A stretch of DNA of 64,000 bases from contig JAUSBL010000029.1 in NCBI GenBank assembly GCA_030658975.1, positions 1 through 64,000 of the forward strand, given 5' to 3'. Shown piece after piece: positions 5,044-60,430 of the stretch. The position numbers were made by a program, and so were the translations under genes. This DNA is from Candidatus Latescibacterota bacterium. Its GTDB lineage: Bacteria > Krumholzibacteriota > Krumholzibacteriia > LZORAL124-64-63. The notes beneath the pieces are model-generated. The model was not told the DNA's origin, ran no database searches, and saw only the letters and a list, made by a program, of their open reading frames with translations. Position 1 is the stretch's first letter. Each line of letters begins with the position of its first letter.

Positions 5044-8000
5044 ATGCACCGTCACCCGCAGAGCCGCGCGCATTCGCGCGCCGCTTGGTTCGCCGCGCTG
5101 TCGATCATGCTGCTGTCCGGCGCCGCCTTCGCCCAGGAACACACCCCCGACGCCACCACGTCGCTGCTGCTGCACTTCAACAGCTCGGCCAGCGGCGCCG
5201 CCGGAGAGACGCCGACCCAGGCCACCGGCCTCACATACGCCGCGGGCAAGTTCGGCAATGGAGTGAACCTGCTGTCCGGCAGCCGCCTCGCCTACAACGC
5301 GGCCGCGAACCTCGCCGCCGCCCAGGGCTCCCTCGAGTTCTGGCTGCGCCCGAACTGGAACGGCGACGACAACCAGGACCGCAACGTGCTCGCCTGGGGC
5401 ACCTGGGGCGGCCTCCTGATCTGCAAGGACGGCGGCAACTTCCTGCGCATCATCGTCAACCGCTGGGGGCCCGACGGCACGTCGGAGCGCGGGGCCGGCT
5501 TCTCGGTCGCCTCCGAGTGGCTCGCCGGCGACTGGCACCACTGTGCCTTCACCTGGAGCGCGACGCAGGTCCAGGTCTTCATCGACGGCGAGCTGCGCGC
5601 CCAGGAGCCGGTGGGCTTCGCGCTGCCGGCCATCGGCGCCGCCACCTTCCAGGTCGGCGGCGAGGGCGCGGCCGGTCCCCTGGACGGCCGACTCGATGAA
5701 CTGCGGATCAGCAGCACCGTGCGCACCGCCGACGAGATCCTCGAGAGCTACGCGCGCGGCCTCTCCTTCGCCTCGCTCGCCGTCGCGCCCGACCCGATGC
5801 AGGTCGCCGTGGGCTGGACGGTCACGCCCGCCGTCACCGCAACCGCGACCAGCGGCCCCGTCCTGCAGGTGCCGCCGGCGGCCTGCAGTTGGACGGTCAA
5901 CGACACGACCGTCGCCAAGGTCGACGCCCAGGGACGCATTCTCGGCCGCCGCACCGGCGCCACCAACGCCGTCGCCTCCTGGCACGGCGTCGTGGACGCC
6001 GTGGCGATCAACGTCCAGGCCGCGCTGCCCGCCCCCGCGAACCCGCGCGCCGTCGGCTTCCGCACCACAGCGCGCGTGGACTGGGACCCGGTCGTCGCCA
6101 CCGCCCTGGCCGGCTACGAGATCGAGCGGCGGCCCGCCGGCGGCACCTTCGCCGTGGTCAAGCGCGTGCTCGCCCGCACGTCATTCACCGACGGCGGACT
6201 GACGCCGGGACAGGCTTACGAGTACCGCGTCGTCGGCATCGACGCCTTCGGTTCGCGGATCACCGCGCTTTCGTCGGGCTGCGCCGCGACCACGCAGACC
6301 GCCGCGACGGGACTCTCGCGGCACAAGAACCTGGAACTGCTCGTCGCGTTCTACACCGAAGGCTACTCCGCCAACGACATCAACCGGATGACCCAGGGGA
6401 TCCACAAGGCGATCGAGTTCTACTGGCGCACCACCGAGGGCAACCTGAACTTCGACCCGACCTTCCTCTACATCGACGCGCCCCTGCCCGCCGACATCTG
6501 GGGTCCCGAGGTCGAGGCCGACCTGCGGGCGCGCGGCGTCCGCGACGGCCAGTACGACGTCGCCTACCTGATGGGCCTGGACCTGGCCGGCTGCCTCGGC
6601 CCGTACCACGTCTTCGACAGCACGATCGCCGCACTGGGCACGGTCTGCAGCGTGCCCTACCCCGAGAACCTGGCCGCCGTCGACTACAGCGTCGCCTGGA
6701 CCTTCACCCACGAGATGCACCACGTACTCGAGCGCATGGACGACATCACCGGCGACGCCACGCCGGACGTCGTGTTCTGCCACTTCGCGTGGGACTACCC
6801 CGGCCTCTTCGGCGGCGAGGGCCGGCACCTGGACTGGGGCCCCCACTACAACGGCATCGCGGTGACGAACCGCCTGTACGGGGACTCCTGGCTGACCTTC
6901 CCCGCCCCCTACGACGGGGTCCTGGAGTGCCTGGACACCGACGGCGACGGTTTGCCCGACGCCGACGATCGCGTCGCCCGGGACGAGGCGGGCTTCGGCT
7001 CCAGCCCCGCACAGCCCGACACGGACTTCGACGGCCTCGGCGACCTCGCGGAGTACGCCCGCTACGACTTCCGCGGCACCGGGCCGACCGTCCCGGACAC
7101 CGACGGCGACGGCGTGCTGGACGGCGCCGATCCCGAGCCGCTCTACGACGTCGCGACGGTGCTGCCGCGGCTCGGCGCCGCGCCGGTGATCGACGGCGTC
7201 CTGGAGCCGTCCTGGCCGCCGTTCGCCACGGGCTACTACTACACGAGCGCCCCCGACCCCTTCACGCTCCTGACCTACGCGGGCTGGCGCGCCGACGGCC
7301 TCTACCTCGCCTTCGCGTCGTCGGTGCGGCTGCGCTTCCACGTCTCGGTCGACGGCAGCGGCGAGAACGGCCGCTGGGAGTCGCCCGTCCGCCACGCCGG
7401 CGGCGCGACCGACACCGACAACCCCGACAACCGGGTCAACCACATCGGCGACTTCTGGGGCGACGGCAACGACATCACCTTCGCCCACGGGCTGGCCGGC
7501 GTGTCGGTCTACGACCGCGGGCCGGTCGGCGGCGCCCAGATCGCCTCGACCTTCACCGGCGGCGTCTACCGCACCGAGGTCCTGATCCCGGCGACGCTGC
7601 CGCCCGGCGCGGGCTACACCTGGTACCCGGCCGGCGCCGGCACGCCCGTGGTGCAGGGCCTCACCCTCGAGCAGGGGCGCGTGCTCGGCCTGAATGTCAG
7701 CGTGGCGCCCGTGGTGGGCTCCGACACCTGGGAGTACTCCGCCGCCTGGTCCGGCCTCTTCGAAACGCATTCCTACGTCGACTTCACGCTGGCCGGCGCG
7801 GTCACCGGCGTGGACGACCCGCCGGCGACCGGTCTGCCCGCGCGCAATGCGCTGGCCGAGATCTTTCCGAATCCGTTCAACCCCAGCGTGACGGTGCGCT
7901 ATGATCTGGCCGTCGCCGGGCGCGTCCGCGTGTCGGTCCACGACCTGGCCGGCCGCGAGGTGGCCCGCCTGCTCGAGGGCGAGAAGCCCGCCGGCCGCCA

Positions 8001-8118
8001 CGCGCTGGTCTGGACGGGCCGCGACGCCCGCGGCCGGCCCGCCGCGTCCGGCGTCTACTTCGCGCGCTTCGAAGCGGCCGGAGTCGCCGAGACACGCAAG
8101 ATCATGCTGGTCCGCTGA
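5044..8118 (+). CDS. Secreted multidomain HExxH protein (LamG, Ig-like, FN3, TSP3-type, FlgD-like C-terminus)
   Basis: A 1024-residue exported protein; the start at 5044 follows an AGGGGG ribosome-binding site and opens a clear signal peptide ending near AAFAQEH. Domains in order: LamG/concanavalin-like (about 35-232), bacterial Ig-like (about 239-325), fibronectin type III (about 329-418), a region with THEMHH (His556, Glu557, His560) suggesting a zinc peptidase, three calcium-type DTDGDG repeats (about 631-696), a CBM9-like beta domain (about 709-918), and a FlgD-like Ig domain with FPNPFNPSVTVRYDL and the tail RKIMLVR. FlgD-like C-terminal domains serve as export or anchoring signals in FCB bacteria. 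Catalytic activity is unproven: only HExxH is seen, with no third ligand identified. Probable role: cell-surface or extracellular adhesion or degradation. Confidence 0.85.
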   Translation: MHRHPQSRAHSRAAWFAALSIMLLSGAAFAQEHTPDATTSLLLHFNSSASGAAGETPTQATGLTYAAGKFGNGVNLLSGSRLAYNAAANLAAAQGSLEFWLRPNWNGDDNQDRNVLAWGTWGGLLICKDGGNFLRIIVNRWGPDGTSERGAGFSVASEWLAGDWHHCAFTWSATQVQVFIDGELRAQEPVGFALPAIGAATFQVGGEGAAGPLDGRLDELRISSTVRTADEILESYARGLSFASLAVAPDPMQVAVGWTVTPAVTATATSGPVLQVPPAACSWTVNDTTVAKVDAQGRILGRRTGATNAVASWHGVVDAVAINVQAALPAPANPRAVGFRTTARVDWDPVVATALAGYEIERRPAGGTFAVVKRVLARTSFTDGGLTPGQAYEYRVVGIDAFGSRITALSSGCAATTQTAATGLSRHKNLELLVAFYTEGYSANDINRMTQGIHKAIEFYWRTTEGNLNFDPTFLYIDAPLPADIWGPEVEADLRARGVRDGQYDVAYLMGLDLAGCLGPYHVFDSTIAALGTVCSVPYPENLAAVDYSVAWTFTHEMHHVLERMDDITGDATPDVVFCHFAWDYPGLFGGEGRHLDWGPHYNGIAVTNRLYGDSWLTFPAPYDGVLECLDTDGDGLPDADDRVARDEAGFGSSPAQPDTDFDGLGDLAEYARYDFRGTGPTVPDTDGDGVLDGADPEPLYDVATVLPRLGAAPVIDGVLEPSWPPFATGYYYTSAPDPFTLLTYAGWRADGLYLAFASSVRLRFHVSVDGSGENGRWESPVRHAGGATDTDNPDNRVNHIGDFWGDGNDITFAHGLAGVSVYDRGPVGGAQIASTFTGGVYRTEVLIPATLPPGAGYTWYPAGAGTPVVQGLTLEQGRVLGLNVSVAPVVGSDTWEYSAAWSGLFETHSYVDFTLAGAVTGVDDPPATGLPARNALAEIFPNPFNPSVTVRYDLAVAGRVRVSVHDLAGREVARLLEGEKPAGRHALVWTGRDARGRPAASGVYFARFEAAGVAETRKIMLVR

Positions 8119-19005: not shown

Positions 19006-19674
19006 TCACCGGTACATGCTCTTGACGTTGCCCCAGGCGGTCTGCTCGTTGGGGACGCCGCACTCCATGTAGTTGTAGGTGACCGAGTAGCTGACGTAGG
19101 CCTGCATGCCGATCGACCAGCTGTTGGCGCCGTTCTGGTAGGACATGTCGAAAGCCGTGCAGGGGAGGTTGACCGTGCCGGCGCCCGTGAAGAGCGCCAG
19201 ATCGAGGGCGCTCGCCAGGCAGACCGTGTTGCCCGCGGACACGTCCAGTCCGGAGTGGGTCACGCCGGAGGTGCCGGCGTAGTCCGCGACGCCGTCGAAA
19301 GACGTGAGCGCATCCGAGAAGGACTGCGACGGTTGGAGCACCATCACCGGCGACAGGTCGGGCCGCCTGACCGTGACCTGGACCTGGTAGACGCTCGTCA
19401 CGGACGCGGGAAAGGTCTGGGTGTTCTCGTAGCTCAGGAACCCGGCCCCGTGCGCCGTCGCCTGCACGCAGACGGAGGTCAGGCACTGGCCGGGAAGGTC
19501 GAACTGCGGCACGGACTGGACCGGGAACGTGTACTGGCTCATGCCGAGATAGGGAGACGGACCATAGGTGCCGCTGTGCGTGATGGAGGCGGCCCGGGCG
19601 CCGGCGCCGACGATCGTCAGCGACAGGCACACGGCGACGGCGAGGCGGGAGGCGGTCGGTTTCAAGCTGGTCAT
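19006..19674 (-). CDS. Secreted protein with WGNVKSMYR C-terminal tail
   Basis: A 222-residue exported protein of unknown function. The ATG at 19674 directly opens a signal peptide (MTSLKPTASRLAVAV, cleavage near GARAAS); a longer frame starts at 19740 but would bury that signal. No good ribosome-binding site is seen for either. The mature part is beta-rich, with SYENTQTFPASVTSVYQVQV, in the style of choice-of-anchor E type surface proteins. It ends ECGVPNEQTAWGNVKSMYR. Two other secreted proteins here (42292-42909 and 59768-60430) end with a similar Cys-spacer-W-K-Y tail, suggesting a common sorting or processing signal. A strong terminator follows the gene. Confidence 0.75.
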   Translation of the reverse strand: MTSLKPTASRLAVAVCLSLTIVGAGARAASITHSGTYGPSPYLGMSQYTFPVQSVPQFDLPGQCLTSVCVQATAHGAGFLSYENTQTFPASVTSVYQVQVTVRRPDLSPVMVLQPSQSFSDALTSFDGVADYAGTSGVTHSGLDVSAGNTVCLASALDLALFTGAGTVNLPCTAFDMSYQNGANSWSIGMQAYVSYSVTYNYMECGVPNEQTAWGNVKSMYR

Positions 19675-42291: not shown

Positions 42292-42909
42292 ATGAACAAT
42301 TGCAGAACGCTACGACAACTGCAGTTCGCGGCCGTGGCGATCCTGATCCTGCTGCCGGCAGGTTCGGCTCTCGCCAGCGACCTGACCGGCGTGATCACCG
42401 CAGAGTACGTGGGCCAACGCGAGGTCGGCGAGTGGTGCTACACCCTGGCCGTCACCTGGCAGAACGATCCCGCGCGCGGCCTGAGCCACGTCAACCTGTC
42501 CCTGGGCGAAGGCACGGACTGCACCGAGGCCGAGATCAACTCCGGAGTCCTGTGGGACGACCTCGCGGGAGTGGTGACCAACGCCTCGTTCACGGGCGAG
42601 ATCCCCTGCATGGCCTGGTACGAGCCCAACGGGGATCCCTCGCTGAACCTCACCGTACCCCTGCTGAAGTTCGAGCCCCATCCCGGCGCGGTCCGGGGGC
42701 CGGGTCCCGTCGGCTGGGGCCGGCTCGTCTTCTACTCCGACAAGCCGCCCGCGCAGATCGCCACGCCGAACAGTTTCCTGAGCCAGAAGTTCGGCACGTA
42801 CAGCAGTTTCGGCCAGGTGACGGGCGTGTTCCCGGCCCTGCCGTGCGATCCCGTCGCGTCGCAGGCGTCGGCCTGGGGCGAAGTGAAGGCGCTCTACGGC
42901 GCCCGCTGA
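42292..42909 (+). CDS. Secreted protein with WGEVKALYGAR C-terminal tail
   Basis: A 205-residue exported protein of unknown function. The ATG at 42292 follows GAGGGCG and opens a signal peptide (LQFAAVAILILLPAG, cleavage near ALASDL). A longer frame begins at 42190, but its added residues look like leader. The mature protein is beta-rich with four or five cysteines and no recognised domain. It ends LPCDPVASQASAWGEVKALYGAR, matching the Cys-spacer-W-x-x-[VL]-K-[SA]-[ML]-Y tail of the proteins at 19006 and 59768. Divergent from exonuclease III and convergent with the methyltransferase. Confidence 0.75.
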   Translation: MNNCRTLRQLQFAAVAILILLPAGSALASDLTGVITAEYVGQREVGEWCYTLAVTWQNDPARGLSHVNLSLGEGTDCTEAEINSGVLWDDLAGVVTNASFTGEIPCMAWYEPNGDPSLNLTVPLLKFEPHPGAVRGPGPVGWGRLVFYSDKPPAQIATPNSFLSQKFGTYSSFGQVTGVFPALPCDPVASQASAWGEVKALYGAR

Positions 42910-43889: not shown

Positions 43890-45827
43890 ATGCAACCCGT
43901 TGCTCGACGACTACTGCTTGCGATCTGTGCGCTGCTGCTGCTGGCGACGCCGCTGGCCGCCAAGGACAACCTGGACAATCCTGACCTGAGCCTGGGCAGG
44001 ACGGCGCCGCCGGCCGCGGCGACCCGCGACGACAACATCCTGGTGGAGGGCTTCGAGGCCACGACCTTCCCGCCCACGGGTTGGGCCCGCCTCCACCTGA
44101 GCACGTCCTACGCGTGGGCGCGCAGCACCACTTCGCACAACACGGGCGTAGCCTGCGCCTGGGTGCGCTACGGCCCGTCGACCATCACGCAGAACGAGTG
44201 GCTGGTGACGCCCGCCCTCGACTTCTCGGCCCTGACCAACCCGAAGCTGGAGTTCTACGAGGCTTCGCCCTACTGGGGCAGCTACGGCGAGCACCACTAC
44301 GTCATGGTCAGCACGACCAGCCAGACCACGCCGGCCTCGTTCTCTACGGTGGTCGACTGGACGCCGCTGAACCACTCCATCAACGAGAACGCGTTCGGCG
44401 CCACGCCGACGGTGGTCAACCTGTCGGCCTACGCGGGCCAGCCCGTCGTCTACGTCGCCATCCGGTACGTGGGCAGCGACGCCGACAACTGGTACGTGGA
44501 TGACCTCCGAATCTACGAACCGCCGCTGCACGACCTGGCGCTGACTGCCCTCACGCCCGACCTGCAGCAGTACGACGCCATGGACACCCCGACTCCCCAG
44601 GTGACCGTCGTGAACGCGGGCCGCAGCACCGAGGACTTCGCGGTCACCCTCACGGTCACCGAGAACGACCTGCCGTACTCCCAGGAAACCGTGAACGTCA
44701 CGGGCCTGGCCATGAACGACGAGACCGTCGTCGATTTCCCGGCGCTCGCGCTGTCGCCCGGAAACTACTACCGTCTGCAGGCCGAAATCGTGTCCCCCGA
44801 CGATCTCGTTCCGGGAAACAACACCGGCTCTGCCGTGAACGACACCTACACCGGACCGCACACTCCCCTCGGGATGCTGAACACCAACGCCGGCTGCGAC
44901 CCCTGCGTCCAGGCGAACCTAGCCCTCGACGCCTACCTGCCGAGGCAGGGTGACGACGTGGCCTGCATCCGCATCCACGTCTGGTGGCCGGGCGCCGACG
45001 GGATCTACAACGCCAACACCGAGCAGAGCGCCTTCCTGGCCAACGGGATCGGCGCCGACTACGCCCCGCACATGTGGATGGACGCCGTCGTCGATGCCGG
45101 TTCGGACGGCTCCGGCTACGATGACCACTTCGAGGCCCGCAAGTCCTACCACAGCCCGCTGACCATCGTGCAGGCCTGGAACGACGCCGCCCAGGAACTG
45201 TCGGTCACCGTCACGGTGGACGAGCCGCTGCCGCCCGAGGCCGACCTGCGGTTGCGCGTGGCGATCACCGAGGACGACGTCTTCTACGCCGGCAGCAACG
45301 GCGAGAGCTACCACGACCAGGCGTTCCGCTACATGTACCCCACCACCGACGGCCTGCAGGTGCCGCCGGCTCCCGGCGTCTACCACTACGTGGTGCCCTG
45401 CATTCTGGATCTGATCGAGTGGAACTACGCCAAGCTGCGCGCGACGGTCTACGTGCAGGACAACGACAGCTGGAAGGTCCACAACACGACGACCGGCTTC
45501 CTGTCGGCGCTGACCTACGACGTGGCCGTCGGCGACGGCGCGCTCCCGGCGCGCCTGACCGCGTCGCCGGTGCGCCCCAACCCGTTCAACCCCTCGACGT
45601 CGGTCGCCTTCTCGCTGCCTGCGGCGCAGAGGGTGCGCGTCACCGTGCACGACCTCGAGGGCAAGCTCGTGGCCACGCTGCTCGACGAGCAGCGCGCGGC
45701 CGGCCCCCACACCCTGATCTGGGACGGCCGCGACGGTGCTGGCCGCAACTCAGCCTCGGGCACGTACGTGTTCCGCATCGAGGCCGGCGGCGAAACCGCG
45801 ACGCGGCGGGCGATGCTCGTGAAGTGA
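43890..45827 (+). CDS. Secreted adhesin-like protein with FlgD-like C-terminal domain
   Basis: A 645-residue exported protein. The start at 43890 follows GAGGGGG and gives a signal peptide (RRLLLAICALLLLATPLAA). An N-terminal choice-of-anchor J/cleaved-adhesin domain (about 45-205; VEGFEATTFPPTGWAR and DNWYVDDLRIYEP) is followed by a CARDB-like Ig domain (about 210-310; PQVTVVNAGRSTEDFAVTL), a region with GCDPCVQANLALDAYLP, and a FlgD-like Ig domain with VRPNPFNPSTSVAFSL ending ATRRAMLVK. The CDPC motif and following VACIRIHVWWPG recall thioredoxin-like Omp28 domains. Probably surface-located or secreted; specific ligand unknown. A perfect terminator follows. Confidence 0.85.
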   Translation: MQPVARRLLLAICALLLLATPLAAKDNLDNPDLSLGRTAPPAAATRDDNILVEGFEATTFPPTGWARLHLSTSYAWARSTTSHNTGVACAWVRYGPSTITQNEWLVTPALDFSALTNPKLEFYEASPYWGSYGEHHYVMVSTTSQTTPASFSTVVDWTPLNHSINENAFGATPTVVNLSAYAGQPVVYVAIRYVGSDADNWYVDDLRIYEPPLHDLALTALTPDLQQYDAMDTPTPQVTVVNAGRSTEDFAVTLTVTENDLPYSQETVNVTGLAMNDETVVDFPALALSPGNYYRLQAEIVSPDDLVPGNNTGSAVNDTYTGPHTPLGMLNTNAGCDPCVQANLALDAYLPRQGDDVACIRIHVWWPGADGIYNANTEQSAFLANGIGADYAPHMWMDAVVDAGSDGSGYDDHFEARKSYHSPLTIVQAWNDAAQELSVTVTVDEPLPPEADLRLRVAITEDDVFYAGSNGESYHDQAFRYMYPTTDGLQVPPAPGVYHYVVPCILDLIEWNYAKLRATVYVQDNDSWKVHNTTTGFLSALTYDVAVGDGALPARLTASPVRPNPFNPSTSVAFSLPAAQRVRVTVHDLEGKLVATLLDEQRAAGPHTLIWDGRDGAGRNSASGTYVFRIEAGGETATRRAMLVK

Positions 45828-54608: not shown

Positions 54609-56591
54609 ATGACCGGCATTCACCGTGCCCATGCCCGACTACCCGGCCTCGTCCTGATCCTGCTGTGGGCTCTCGTCCCACCGGCGCTCGCCGACGACGC
54701 CGGAACGCCCGGGACGCTGTCCGCATCCGTCGCCGCCGCGCTCGGCGCGCCAGCCGACCGGATCATGCTGCAGCAACTCACCTCCCTGCCCGAACCCGGC
54801 AAACCGGCGACGGTCGATCTCGTGCTCGAGGGCCGGGCGGTGCGACTGGCGTTGACGCCACGTTCGCTGCGGGGACCGAACTTCCGGGTACGTGTCCAGG
54901 GCGCCGACGGCGAGTTGCGGACGTTCGCGCCGGCGCCGCCCGCCACCTGGCGCGGCGAGATCGCGGGCGAACCCGGCAGCCGGGTCGTCGCGTCGCTGGT
55001 CGACGGCGAACTGCACGCGTCGGTGCTGCTGCCGGGCGACGCCGGCGAAGCCGACTGGTGGTCGGTCGTGCCGGTGCGTGGGCTGGCGCCCGATACGCCG
55101 GCTGGCACTTTGCGGGATCTGGTGGCCGTGGGACGCACGTCCGATCTCTCCCCCGACGGCGCGACCTGCGCCGCGCCCGACGGCCCGAAGGCGCCGCCGC
55201 CCGCCGCCGCCGCGCGCACGGACCGTTCGCCGACGACGGTCGACGTGCTGGAGATCGCCTGCGACGCCGACGTCGAGTACTACGCGCTGAACGGGTCGTC
55301 GGTCGCGAACACGGTGGCGGACATCGAGGCGGTGCTCAACGGCGCGGCCGACCTGTTCGAGTTCGACGCGCAGACGACGTTCGCCGTCGGCGACATCGTC
55401 GTGCGCACCGCCGAGCCCGACCCCTACGCGACGACCAACCCGTACGCGTTCATCGTCGAGGTCCGCACCGAATGGCTGGCGAACCAGACGGACATCGAGC
55501 GGGACCTGGTCCAGCTCTTCACCGGCAAGGATCTCGCCGGCTCCGCGGTGGGCATCGCCTTCTCCGATCCGGGTGTCTGCAGCACCTACTACGGCTACAG
55601 CATCGTCCAGTCGCGCTACACCACCGCGATGGCCTACCGCGTCGCGAACTCGGCGCACGAGATCGGCCACAACTGCACCCTCTACCACTGCAACGACGAT
55701 GAAATCATCTGCCGGATCATGTGCGCGAGCATCGGCGGCTGCTCCTGCGCGCTCCACTCGTTCGGGCCCCTCTCGACGGCCCGCCTGCGCAGCTACCTGG
55801 CCGGCGTGGCCTGCCTGGGCACGACCGAGCTCGAGTTCCCGCACGCGACGCTGCCCTTCACCGACAACTTCACCGCCGTGAACCTCGACCCGGCGAAATG
55901 GACGGCCGCCGACAACGCCTATCCCAGTTCGGGACGTTTGCAGATCGCCCACGGCGGCGGCTGGAGCCCGGAGTTCTACCTGGGCACCGCCCGCACCCTG
56001 CCGATCGCGCTGTCCGGCCGGGCCGACGTCAGCTACAAGGTGCGCCCGCTGGGCGTGATCGCCGGCCAGCGGCTGTGGGTGGAGTACTTCGACACCGCTA
56101 CCGGGACATGGATCATGCTGAACAACATCCAGGCGCCGGGCGGCACGCCGGCCGACTACACCACCTACACGCACACCACGCCGCCGGAGGCCACCGGCGA
56201 CCTGTTCAGCCTGCGCTTCAGCGCCTACGGCAACCAGGGGAGTTCGTCGACCGACTGGCTCGTCGACGACGTGGCGATCACGGCCTCCGCAGTCGATGTT
56301 CCGTCCGTACGCGCCGCCGTGCTGCTGCGCGGCGTGCGGCCGAACCCCTTCAATCCACAGGCAGAGGTCGAGGTCGCGCTCGACCGCCGGCGCCACCTCC
56401 TGCTGCGGGTGTTCGACGTCACGGGGCGCGAGTTGGCGGTGCTGGCGAAAGGCGATTTCGGCGCCGGCAGGCACGCCTTCGTCTGGGAAGGCCAGGAATC
56501 CGGCGGCCGCGTGGTTCCATCGGGAACCTATGTCGTCCGGCTGGAGTCCGGGGAGATCCGCGAGAGCCGGCTCGTCAGCCTGGTCCGCTGA
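54609..56591 (+). CDS. Secreted metzincin-like metalloprotease with FlgD-like C-terminal domain
   Basis: A 660-residue exported protein; AAGGAG precedes the ATG and a signal peptide ends near ALADDA. A propeptide-like region (about 30-190) is followed by a peptidase domain in the style of reprolysin-like M12 enzymes. The zinc motif is H350-EIG-H354-NCTLY-H360, with the three histidines correctly spaced, but the usual glycine is Thr357. A Met-turn candidate (ICRIMCAS) follows. Next come a jelly-roll-like domain (about 415-565) and a FlgD-like Ig domain with VRPNPFNPQAEVEVAL ending RLVSLVR. It probably degrades extracellular proteins after prodomain removal. The peptidase domain is cysteine-rich. 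Confidence 0.87.
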   Translation: MTGIHRAHARLPGLVLILLWALVPPALADDAGTPGTLSASVAAALGAPADRIMLQQLTSLPEPGKPATVDLVLEGRAVRLALTPRSLRGPNFRVRVQGADGELRTFAPAPPATWRGEIAGEPGSRVVASLVDGELHASVLLPGDAGEADWWSVVPVRGLAPDTPAGTLRDLVAVGRTSDLSPDGATCAAPDGPKAPPPAAAARTDRSPTTVDVLEIACDADVEYYALNGSSVANTVADIEAVLNGAADLFEFDAQTTFAVGDIVVRTAEPDPYATTNPYAFIVEVRTEWLANQTDIERDLVQLFTGKDLAGSAVGIAFSDPGVCSTYYGYSIVQSRYTTAMAYRVANSAHEIGHNCTLYHCNDDEIICRIMCASIGGCSCALHSFGPLSTARLRSYLAGVACLGTTELEFPHATLPFTDNFTAVNLDPAKWTAADNAYPSSGRLQIAHGGGWSPEFYLGTARTLPIALSGRADVSYKVRPLGVIAGQRLWVEYFDTATGTWIMLNNIQAPGGTPADYTTYTHTTPPEATGDLFSLRFSAYGNQGSSSTDWLVDDVAITASAVDVPSVRAAVLLRGVRPNPFNPQAEVEVALDRRRHLLLRVFDVTGRELAVLAKGDFGAGRHAFVWEGQESGGRVVPSGTYVVRLESGEIRESRLVSLVR

Positions 56592-57385: not shown

Positions 57386-59557
57386 TCACTCCACGAGCAT
57401 CACCCGGGCCGTGCTCACCCCGCCCGCGGCGCGCAGCCGCAACAGGTAGGCGCCCGCCGCCGGGGATGAACCGCCGGCGCTCCCGTCCCAGACCGCCGCC
57501 TGGCGCCCCGCCGGCAGGTCGGCGTCGAGCAGGACGGCGACGCGGCGACCGCGCAGGTCGAAGGCCTCCAGGAGGGCGTGCCCGGCGGCCGGCAGTTCGA
57601 AGCTCACGGTCGTGCGCGGGTTGAAGGGGTTCGGGAACGCCCGCAGCGGCGCGGCGGCGACGGCCGGCAACGCCTCGGCCGCGGTCACGCCCTCGCGCAC
57701 TTCGTCCAGGAACCAGAGCGCCGACTCGGGCGTGATGCTCACGTGCTCCTGGTTCTGCAGCGGCACGTGGAGCGCGTCGAAGGTGGTGCGGCTCATCAGG
57801 TCGGGATCCGCGAGCACGTCGTGCAGCGGCCCGACGCCGGCGAGGTCGAGCGCGCTGATCGTCGGGATGAAGCAGTGGTGTCCGAAGAGCGCCTCGATGT
57901 CGCCGTAGGGCACGCTGGTGGTGTCCATCTGCGCCATCGACGCCCGCCAGCCGCCCGGCGCGCCGTCCCACGACACGGCGCCGGCGACCGTCACGTCCTG
58001 GTAGGTGTCCGGCAGCGGCCAGATCACGTTCATCACGCCCTGGAAGATGCGCGCCGAGTTCTGCTGCGGCACCGCCCACACGTTGCCCCGGATGTCCACC
58101 AGGAACGAATCGTACTGGTAGCGGATGATCTGCTGGCCGGGCGCGAAGCCCTGGCCGGCGACGGCGCCCGAGCCGTTGGCCACCGCGACGCGGCGGCAGG
58201 GCGGCAACCCGACCGCCTGCAGGTCGGCTTCGAACGCGGTGCGCAGCGGGTCGGCGGCGGCCGTGGTGCCGCTCGTGGCGAGGTGGTGCTGCAGCAGCAG
58301 CTGCCGCGCGGCGGGCGTGTCGAGGCGGCTCAGCAGGAAGGCGGCGGCCTCGGAGTCGTCCTGGAAGAAGTCGAGCCAGTGCTGCAGGCCCAGCGGGATG
58401 ACGGCGCCGCGCTGCGGCGAGTCGAAGGCGATCCAGGTGCGCACGCCGGAATCGATCTGCTGCTGAGCGAGCCAGCCCAGGGCGTAGCGCGAGACCAGGC
58501 CGCCCATGCTGGCGCCGATCAGCGCGCTGGTGCGCTGCGGGCCCGCGGCCGCGCGGACCATGCCCAGCAGCTCGGTCAGCACGAAGGCGTTGCGCTGGAT
58601 GGGCGCGGTGGCGGACGCGAAGTCCAGCACCACGGCGTCGAAGCCCTCGGCGCGCAGCGTCTCGATGAGCTGCTCCTGGTTCAGCATCTCGTAGAGCACG
58701 TCCCAGCCCATCGTGTCGTCGAGGTCGAAGCCCTCGACCACGACCACCGGGTTGGTCAGCTGGGTGCGGCCTTCGGCGAGGTAGACGTAGGCCGAGCCGG
58801 CGCCGGCCGCGCCATCGTAGGGCAAGCTCGCCGTGACGGACCAGGTCTCGGTCGGCTGGGGGGTCTGCAGCGCGGCGACCTCGAGCGTGAAGGCGGCGTG
58901 GCGCAGGGCGCCGTCGGACGTCGTCGCGCGCAGACGCAGCGTGCGGGCGCCCGTGGCGGCGTAGCTCACCGCGAGCCGGCCGTCGGGGCCGACCGTGCGC
59001 CAGCCGCCGCCGTCGTCGGGGTCGACCTCGAGGCGCGGCGGCAGACCGCCGACGCACAGGTCGGCGGCAAAGGACAGTTCGATCCGGGCGCCGCGGTACG
59101 TCACGGGGCGCAACGCGGCGGCGGCGAAGACGCGACCCCGCTCGACGTCGGCGCGGTCCCAGCGCTGCCGGTCAGCGGACGGGCCGGGCCGCAGGCGGTC
59201 GTAGGGCGCGTCCAGCAGGGCGACCGGTACGACCTCGGGCGGCGCCGCGGCCAGCGCGCGCCGTTCCAGGTCGCGCGGCTCGGGCCAGCCGCGTTCCACG
59301 AGGCTGGAGCGGCGCAGTTCGAAGAGCATCTGGCGCCACAGGCCGGTCGTGGCCGCGGGCGCGTTCCCGCTGCCGTCGAAGCGCTCGAGTCCGGCCAGGG
59401 GGGCGGCCAGATCGACGAGCGTGCCGCTCGGGACGTCGGCGACGGTCAGGCCGGCGGGCAGGGGAGGCGTGCCTGCGAGGGGGCGCGCCGCCACTTGTGC
59501 GACCAACGCCAGAGACACGAGCAGGGTGGCGAAGACGGTGATGCGGTTCCTGGACAT
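57386..59557 (-). CDS. Secreted lipase-like (alpha/beta-hydrolase) protein with FlgD-like C-terminal domain
   Basis: A 723-residue exported protein; GGAAG precedes the ATG at 59557 and the signal peptide ends near AQVAARP. The middle holds an alpha/beta-hydrolase: NPVVVVEGFDLDD strand, nucleophile elbow ALIGASMGGLVSRYALGW (Ser near 350), and AFDSPQRGAVIP, resembling triacylglycerol lipases and PGAP1-type esterases. HCFIPTISALDL and later VPLQNQEHVSIT (His) complete a plausible triad. The C-terminus is a FlgD-like Ig domain, FPNPFNPRTTVSFEL, ending ARVMLVE. Likely cell-surface or secreted esterase; substrate unknown. Confidence 0.85.
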   Translation of the reverse strand: MSRNRITVFATLLVSLALVAQVAARPLAGTPPLPAGLTVADVPSGTLVDLAAPLAGLERFDGSGNAPAATTGLWRQMLFELRRSSLVERGWPEPRDLERRALAAAPPEVVPVALLDAPYDRLRPGPSADRQRWDRADVERGRVFAAAALRPVTYRGARIELSFAADLCVGGLPPRLEVDPDDGGGWRTVGPDGRLAVSYAATGARTLRLRATTSDGALRHAAFTLEVAALQTPQPTETWSVTASLPYDGAAGAGSAYVYLAEGRTQLTNPVVVVEGFDLDDTMGWDVLYEMLNQEQLIETLRAEGFDAVVLDFASATAPIQRNAFVLTELLGMVRAAAGPQRTSALIGASMGGLVSRYALGWLAQQQIDSGVRTWIAFDSPQRGAVIPLGLQHWLDFFQDDSEAAAFLLSRLDTPAARQLLLQHHLATSGTTAAADPLRTAFEADLQAVGLPPCRRVAVANGSGAVAGQGFAPGQQIIRYQYDSFLVDIRGNVWAVPQQNSARIFQGVMNVIWPLPDTYQDVTVAGAVSWDGAPGGWRASMAQMDTTSVPYGDIEALFGHHCFIPTISALDLAGVGPLHDVLADPDLMSRTTFDALHVPLQNQEHVSITPESALWFLDEVREGVTAAEALPAVAAAPLRAFPNPFNPRTTVSFELPAAGHALLEAFDLRGRRVAVLLDADLPAGRQAAVWDGSAGGSSPAAGAYLLRLRAAGGVSTARVMLVE

Positions 59558-59767: not shown

Positions 59768-60430
59768 ATGATGAACGACAAGTTGGATCGTCGCGCCGCT
59801 CCCGGCGCCGGCCGGTGGCTGGTCTGCCTGTCGGCCGTGGCGCTGCTGGCCGTCCCGGCCGCGATCGCACAGGTCTGGACCGAGGACGGCGACGCCGGCG
59901 ACCTGCTCGGCACCGCGCAGATCACGCTCGGGACCGGCGGCCTCACGACCATCGCAGGCGTCCTCGCGGGCCACGACGACGTCGACCTGTACTGCATCCA
60001 GTTGACGGCCACACCGCCGGCGGGCCTGCCTCTGGTCTCCCTTCAGTGCCTCCAGGATGCCGGCCCGAGCCCGTGGCTGTTCGACGCCGTCGGGATGGGA
60101 GTGCGCGCCAACCAGGTCTGTTCCGGCGGCATGAAGATCCTCACGGCGCCGAACGTGTCCCTGGCGCCCGGCCTCTACTACGTCGCGGTGTCCCACCCCG
60201 GCCGCGAGCCGTCGTCGGCGGGCGGCGACATCTGGCAGATCCCGGCCCTCGGCCCGCAGAGCCCCGACGGCCCGGGAGCGGGCAGCGGGTTGTTGAGCTG
60301 GCCCGGTACGCTGGCGATCGTGCCGCCCGCCTCCTACCAGATGACGCTGGGCTGGATGACCTTCTGCGACGGGGCCACGCCCGCGGAGCGGGCCTCCTGG
60401 AGCACGCTCAAGTCGATGTACGGCAACTAG
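59768..60430 (+). CDS. Secreted protein with WSTLKSMYGN C-terminal tail
   Basis: A 220-residue exported protein of unknown function. AGGAG lies 8 nt before tandem ATGs (59768); the signal peptide is WLVCLSAVALLAVPAA, cleaved near AIAQVW. The mature part has strands typical of pre-peptidase (PPC-like) domains, with DDVDLYCIQLTA and LAPGLYYVAVSHPGR, which are common in secreted proteases' C-terminal modules. It ends FCDGATPAERASWSTLKSMYGN, the Cys-spacer-W-x-x-L-K-S-M-Y tail shared with the proteins at 19006 and 42292. Monocistronic; convergent with an HNH endonuclease gene. Confidence 0.75.
   Translation: MMNDKLDRRAAPGAGRWLVCLSAVALLAVPAAIAQVWTEDGDAGDLLGTAQITLGTGGLTTIAGVLAGHDDVDLYCIQLTATPPAGLPLVSLQCLQDAGPSPWLFDAVGMGVRANQVCSGGMKILTAPNVSLAPGLYYVAVSHPGREPSSAGGDIWQIPALGPQSPDGPGAGSGLLSWPGTLAIVPPASYQMTLGWMTFCDGATPAERASWSTLKSMYGN

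Follow-up and report, generated by a model that had tools for sequence, protein, structure and literature searches.

A short C-terminal tail on unrelated secreted proteins of Krumholzibacteriota and Candidatus Eisenbacteria as a probable sorting signal

Many otherwise unrelated secreted proteins share one short C-terminal tail, both in Krumholzibacteriota and in a second phylum, the named members of which are Candidatus Eisenbacteria. Judged from its sequence, the tail is very probably a new, about 16-residue and probably helical C-terminal sorting signal, whichever export route it serves. This reading draws on the restriction of the tail to proteins of the Sec pathway, its place at the extreme C-terminus, its sharing by tens of unrelated families, its slower divergence than that of the bodies it is attached to, its occurrence at the ends of choice-of-anchor E and J proteins, and its exchange with the FlgD_ig/type A sorting domain of the type IX secretion system (T9SS). 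A sequence-only reading of the 64,000-nucleotide stretch of DNA analysed here (the window) had suggested a C-terminal sorting, anchoring or processing signal on three proteins, and that suggestion stands as the best account of the data. The most likely mechanism, which is put forward with modest confidence, is that the tail is read by the T9SS.

The three tail genes of the window are listed in Table 1, together with four genes for large secreted proteins that end in, or seem to end in, the FlgD_ig domain. The tails lie at the very ends of the products, as first quoted: ...YMECGVPNEQTAWGNVKSMYR* (19006-19674), ...LPCDPVASQASAWGEVKALYGAR* (42292-42909) and ...TFCDGATPAERASWSTLKSMYGN* (59768-60430). 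The three proteins had been described as bearing signal peptides, lacking a FlgD-like domain and being unrelated in their mature sequences; indeed, their N-termini are all signal-peptide-like, no kinship between the bodies is detectable, and a Pfam search of the three gave no domain match of any kind. A choice-of-anchor E domain in the 19006-19674 protein had been overlooked (NF033208, E = 4.5e-22). In the AlphaFold model of this protein, a beta-domain spanning residues 30-204 is predicted at high pLDDT and the tail (residues 208-222) is unstructured (pLDDT<50); a PDB fold search with the model returned low TM-scores throughout, at most 0.37. Six orthologues or homologues, with body identities of 22-99%, retain the tail, and in the distant homologues its identity is 38-56%, against 22-29% in the body. 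Near the window start, an ORF at 248-1789 resembles a large serine site-specific recombinase, as judged by its sequence alone.

Table 1. Tail-bearing proteins, their tails and FlgD_ig-type secreted proteins in the window
Feature	Position	Strand	Evidence
Choice-of-anchor E domain protein, secreted, tail-bearing, 222 aa	19006..19674	-	NF033208, signal peptide, AlphaFold
C-terminal tail VPNEQTAWGNVKSMYR of choice-of-anchor E protein	19009..19056	-	pattern match 19012-19035, minus
Tail-bearing secreted protein without family match, 205 aa	42292..42909	+	
C-terminal tail VASQASAWGEVKALYGAR of 205-aa protein	42853..42906	+	pattern match 42874-42897
Tail-bearing secreted protein without family match, 220 aa	59768..60430	+	
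C-terminal tail ATPAERASWSTLKSMYGN of 220-aa protein	60374..60427	+	pattern match 60398-60421
Large secreted choice-of-anchor J protein, FlgD_ig / T9SS type A end	43890..45827	+	PF13860 1.4e-10, NF038128 8.4e-17
Large secreted protein, FlgD_ig / T9SS type A sorting domain	5044..8118	+	TIGR04183 25.2 bits (cut-off 23), PF13860 8.3e-8
Large secreted protein, FlgD_ig-like C-terminus SGTYVVRLESGEIRESRLVSLVR	54609..56591	+	sequence pattern only
Large secreted protein, FlgD_ig-like C-terminus, adjoins tail gene at 59768	57386..59557	-	sequence pattern only

The genome that contains the window is a 3.2 Mb MAG, and its statistics come from pattern scans and from ~464 kb of stretches picked around the matches. 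A relaxed DNA pattern encoding W-x-x-Φ-K-x-Φ-[YF] has 59 matches, compared with 4 for the reversed pattern used as control; when one further residue and a stop codon are included, the counts are 36 and 0. Among the matches viewed in context, nearly all end 0-12 residues ahead of a stop, and at least 52 are C-terminal tails. By a hydrophobicity heuristic, a signal peptide is present on 51 of the 52 proteins concerned; the remaining one is a fragment of 27 residues, possibly frameshifted. Of the ORFs called in the 464 kb, 39 carry a tail, all with a hydrophobic N-terminus (in eight, the start had been called too far in or the score was weak, and the hydrophobic stretch is visible or is gained via an earlier start), and the tail occurs on none of the 162 ORFs without a signal peptide. 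Because the stretches were picked around matches, the frequency of the tail in them is inflated, but its restriction to secreted proteins is not. Both ways in which the sequence-only reading might have failed, absence of the motif from other secreted proteins of the organism and equal frequency at cytoplasmic C-termini, are thus contradicted: the pattern scan of the genome places the tail on many other secreted proteins (51 of 52 with a signal peptide), and in the 464 kb it is on 0 of 162 ORFs that lack a signal peptide. The 51 proteins form 35 clusters, corresponding to about 35 unrelated families. Seven tail genes, some of them tandem paralogues, lie inside 20 kb at one locus (L039, G000:C103:33000-52999). 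A lipobox-like stretch is seen in 1 of the 51, which does not mark them as lipoproteins, and 18 have an A-x-A/Q signal-peptidase site, which recalls the pyroglutamate rule of Bacteroidota.

The tails have the consensus V-A/P-N/V-E-x-x-S/T-W-G-x-V/I-K-A/S-L/M-Y-R, at the extreme C-terminus. In a position table of the 51 own tails and 147 others, with Trp as position 0, the own genome shows V(-7) [AP](-6) [NT](-5) E(-4) [DE](-3) x [ST](-1) W G x [VI] K [AST] [LM] Y [RK]; other genomes are dominated by P-V-E-x-[ST]-[ST]-W-G-x-I-K-A-L-Y-R, in a set selected with the E and the S/T in the search pattern. The Lys near the C-terminal end is near-invariant, and the Trp position is sometimes occupied by Phe. 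In genomes of one family of the phylum (f3; G005, G006 and others), the tail stops exactly at the Tyr, without the final Arg or Lys. The sequence-only reading had also noted a Cys 9-11 residues before the Trp. The spacing is 9, 10 and 11 residues in the three window proteins, so the observation holds there, but it does not extend to a general rule: a Cys occupies one of the positions -11 to -9 in 16 of the 51 own tails (31%, against 3.2 tails expected) and in 69 of the 147 others (47%, against 14 expected). Cys is therefore about five-fold enriched, yet, present in about a third to a half of the tails, it is rejected as a defining part. Third codon positions within the tails are free to vary and the residues are kept, so the constraint acts on the protein. 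Chance, shared ancestry of the proteins or a DNA or RNA element at gene ends might be invoked on the grounds that some tail proteins are paralogues (51 in 35 clusters), but the near-zero reversed-pattern controls, the unrelated bodies and the codon pattern refute such explanations, which are hardly credible.

A pointer to function comes from proteins that share a body and differ in their ends. After removal of the signal peptide and the tail, each body was searched against the remaining ORFs of the DNA stretches examined. Apart from near-miss tails, the matches are larger proteins with a FlgD_ig end, seen in at least 13 cases. Several of the pairs are adjoining genes, among them L050:11508-12104 (tail) with L050:12205-14526 (FlgD_ig), and L062:6392-6985 with L062:4008-6293, which both contain a Lamin Tail Domain; further cases are found at L043, L085 and L161. 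The C-termini of the partners match FlgD_ig (PF13860), and several exceed the cut-off for the T9SS type A domain (TIGR04183). Within the window, the choice-of-anchor J protein at 43890..45827 does so (24.3 bits; cut-off 23), and its domain matches a tail protein elsewhere (L138:2028-3320). Since the same mature domains carry either end, the tail and the T9SS sorting domain behave as alternative C-terminal modules, although most large secreted proteins carry FlgD_ig, so that partners would be of this kind even if the routes differed. Tail proteins have a median length of 230 aa, compared with 669 aa for FlgD-tail proteins (p = 1e-8), and this division into small and large cargo fits two signals for one route. 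Overall adjacency of tail genes and FlgD genes is not significant (10 pairs, 6.8 expected, p = 0.11).

The exchange also bears on whether the tail acts during export at all. After export, a dockerin-like helix might instead bind an outer-membrane or surface partner non-covalently, in which case the tail would be a docking peptide and no export signal. A short amphipathic helix behind a flexible linker, carried by many different small domains, would suit such a role. In the AlphaFold model of a choice-of-anchor J family, the tail forms a short helix (residues 337-344, modest confidence) after a low-confidence linker, with W-V-L-Y on the hydrophobic face; the helical moment of the tail is modestly above that of shuffles, and no more. 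However, the same bodies also occur with a type A sorting domain of the T9SS in place of the tail, which argues for targeting, and the analysis turned up no partner domain, making docking unlikely.

The tail in its C-terminal form is present in 79 of 80 genomes of the window's own phylum and in 41 of 47 of the second phylum, and reversed controls are almost always zero. By matching SprA coordinates, genomes labelled Krumholzibacteriota coincide with members of the own phylum. A scan of the collection gave at least 116 contigs with the tail, and nearly all the named ones listed belong to these two phyla. The sequence-only reading had proposed looking for a co-occurring peptidase or translocon, and SprA and Peptidase_C25 are each encoded by every one of the 80 own-phylum genomes and by 0 of 14 controls; a PorV-family gene is found close to a tail gene in the own genome. 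In an outside set, SprA occurs in 20 of 21 tail-bearing genomes, several of which are of the own phylum under other labels. The exception, deposited as 'Verrucomicrobia bacterium B12_G4' (G094, L102), lacks SprA; all its true tails are on contigs <10 kb and none on longer ones, and they are taken as Krumholzibacteriota-like contamination, so that this likely contaminated bin is rejected as an SprA-free tail genome. Two other deposited names look wrong: 'Gemmatimonas sp. SW.020' (G080, L114) and 'Fibrobacter sp. IMS_BF' (G093, L062) appear to be the same as G070 and G071, of the window's own genus (identical SprA coordinates). Directly beside sprA in the own genome (L215, G000:C8, 1768-2727 and 2717-9307) lies a gene for a secreted M28-like peptidase or possible glutaminyl cyclase, a family guessed from sequence, NCBIfam having given a weak dapE match alone.

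The T9SS signals reported to date have a beta-sandwich fold, and in Bacteroidota such signals are not known to have the form of this tail. As in T9SS substrates, an N-terminal Sec signal peptide is combined with a conserved C-terminal signal (51 of 52 own tails), and the host encodes SprA, a PorV-family protein and a C25 peptidase. The type A domain (TIGR04183/PF18962; here FlgD_ig-like, PF13860) and the tail both occupy the extreme C-terminus of Sec-signal proteins, occur on many unrelated cargo families with the same mature domains, and share genomes with SprA, PorV-family proteins and C25 peptidases. However, the type A domain is a beta-sandwich of about 70-80 residues with a G-x-Y motif, whereas the tail has about 16 residues and neither feature. 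The type A profile (TIGR04183/PF18962) does not match the three window proteins or further tail proteins in NCBIfam and Pfam searches, and in place of a beta-sandwich with motifs B, D and E, AlphaFold leaves the tail unstructured or as a short helix. Type A C-terminal domains (CTDs) carry, close to their end, a Lys that is near-invariant and important for function (PMC10994853); the near-invariant Lys of the tail resembles it, and no more than that. The shortest T9SS signals described, the type A CTDs of Prevotella intermedia (43-55 aa), still have motifs B, D and E along with three beta strands (PMC11969387); like the tail, they are shortened C-terminal signals beside long ones in the same organism, but the tail has neither these strands nor these motifs. 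Type B domains (CHU_C, PF13585) are folded, with five motifs and their own shuttles (PMC12618676); they too represent a second signal class at the C-terminus in organisms with a T9SS, but show no sequence similarity to the tail. With neither the profile nor the fold of type A, the tail is not assigned to the type A or type B domains, although it probably acts at the same site as they do. The claims that it is distinct from the known type IX signals and belongs to no named family are thereby borne out, no Pfam or NCBIfam model matching it, and a literature search found no description of the tail, or of any T9SS signal, in Krumholzibacteriota or Eisenbacteria.

The same differences leave some room for a separate, undescribed surface-sorting system in most Krumholzibacteriota and Eisenbacteria, parallel to the T9SS, with its own receptor and perhaps its own processing peptidase or transpeptidase. 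The tail resembles T9SS signals neither in sequence nor in predicted structure, lacking strands and motifs kept even by signals of 43-55 aa, and its cargo forms a size class of its own. SprA, being present in every genome of the phylum, does not separate the T9SS from other routes, and tail numbers vary independently of it, from 0 to 47 per SprA-bearing genome; in the second phylum, some ten genomes that form a clade carry 0-3 tails each. Against a separate system, no candidate machinery was found, exosortase being excluded, and the fact that the same bodies occur with the sorting domain of the T9SS suggests a common destination. Such a system is possible but rather unlikely, and reading by the T9SS is preferred.

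The better-known C-terminal signals of the PEP-CTERM and LPXTG types combine a recognition motif with a transmembrane helix and a tail of basic residues. Like the tail described here, they are short C-terminal modules on many unrelated secreted proteins, including choice-of-anchor ones, and members of the choice-of-anchor E and J families elsewhere carry PEP-CTERM-type signals. The ending of such domains in the tail could therefore suggest a degenerate PEP-CTERM-type signal, with a membrane enzyme of the exosortase or sortase kind as its processor. However, the tails (51 + 147) have neither a hydrophobic segment nor a terminal basic cluster, and no LPXTG-like motif was found in those viewed. 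Exosortase (PF09721) is missing from the own genome and from 38 of 38 genomes of its tail-rich family, but common in families with few tails, and is thus rejected as the tail processor. This explanation is very improbable, and the distinction from PEP-CTERM and LPXTG drawn in the sequence-only reading is upheld.

If the tail is a T9SS signal, its proteins would leave the cytoplasm via the Sec pathway, as their N-terminal signal peptides imply, and would fold in the periplasm as small, mostly beta-rich domains. At the end of each, a short amphipathic helix, [ST]-W-G-x-[VI]-K-[AS]-[LM]-Y-[RK], would sit behind an acidic, flexible linker. This helix may be recognised at the outer membrane, where the T9SS translocon (SprA with PorV-family shuttles) is its most likely reader. 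The tail would thereby be a compact stand-in for the roughly 80-residue FlgD_ig/type A beta-sandwich of larger proteins, and transport across the outer membrane would leave the tail proteins on the surface or outside the cell.

The extracellular biology of these two large uncultured phyla is almost unread, and the tail would name their surface or secreted proteins, tens per genome, and would supply a new sorting-signal model for genome annotation. If the T9SS does not read the tail, another outer-membrane sorting route exists to be found. If it does, the translocon accepts a 16-residue peptide, and not only the folded beta-sandwich now thought to be required, and recognition would become directly testable.
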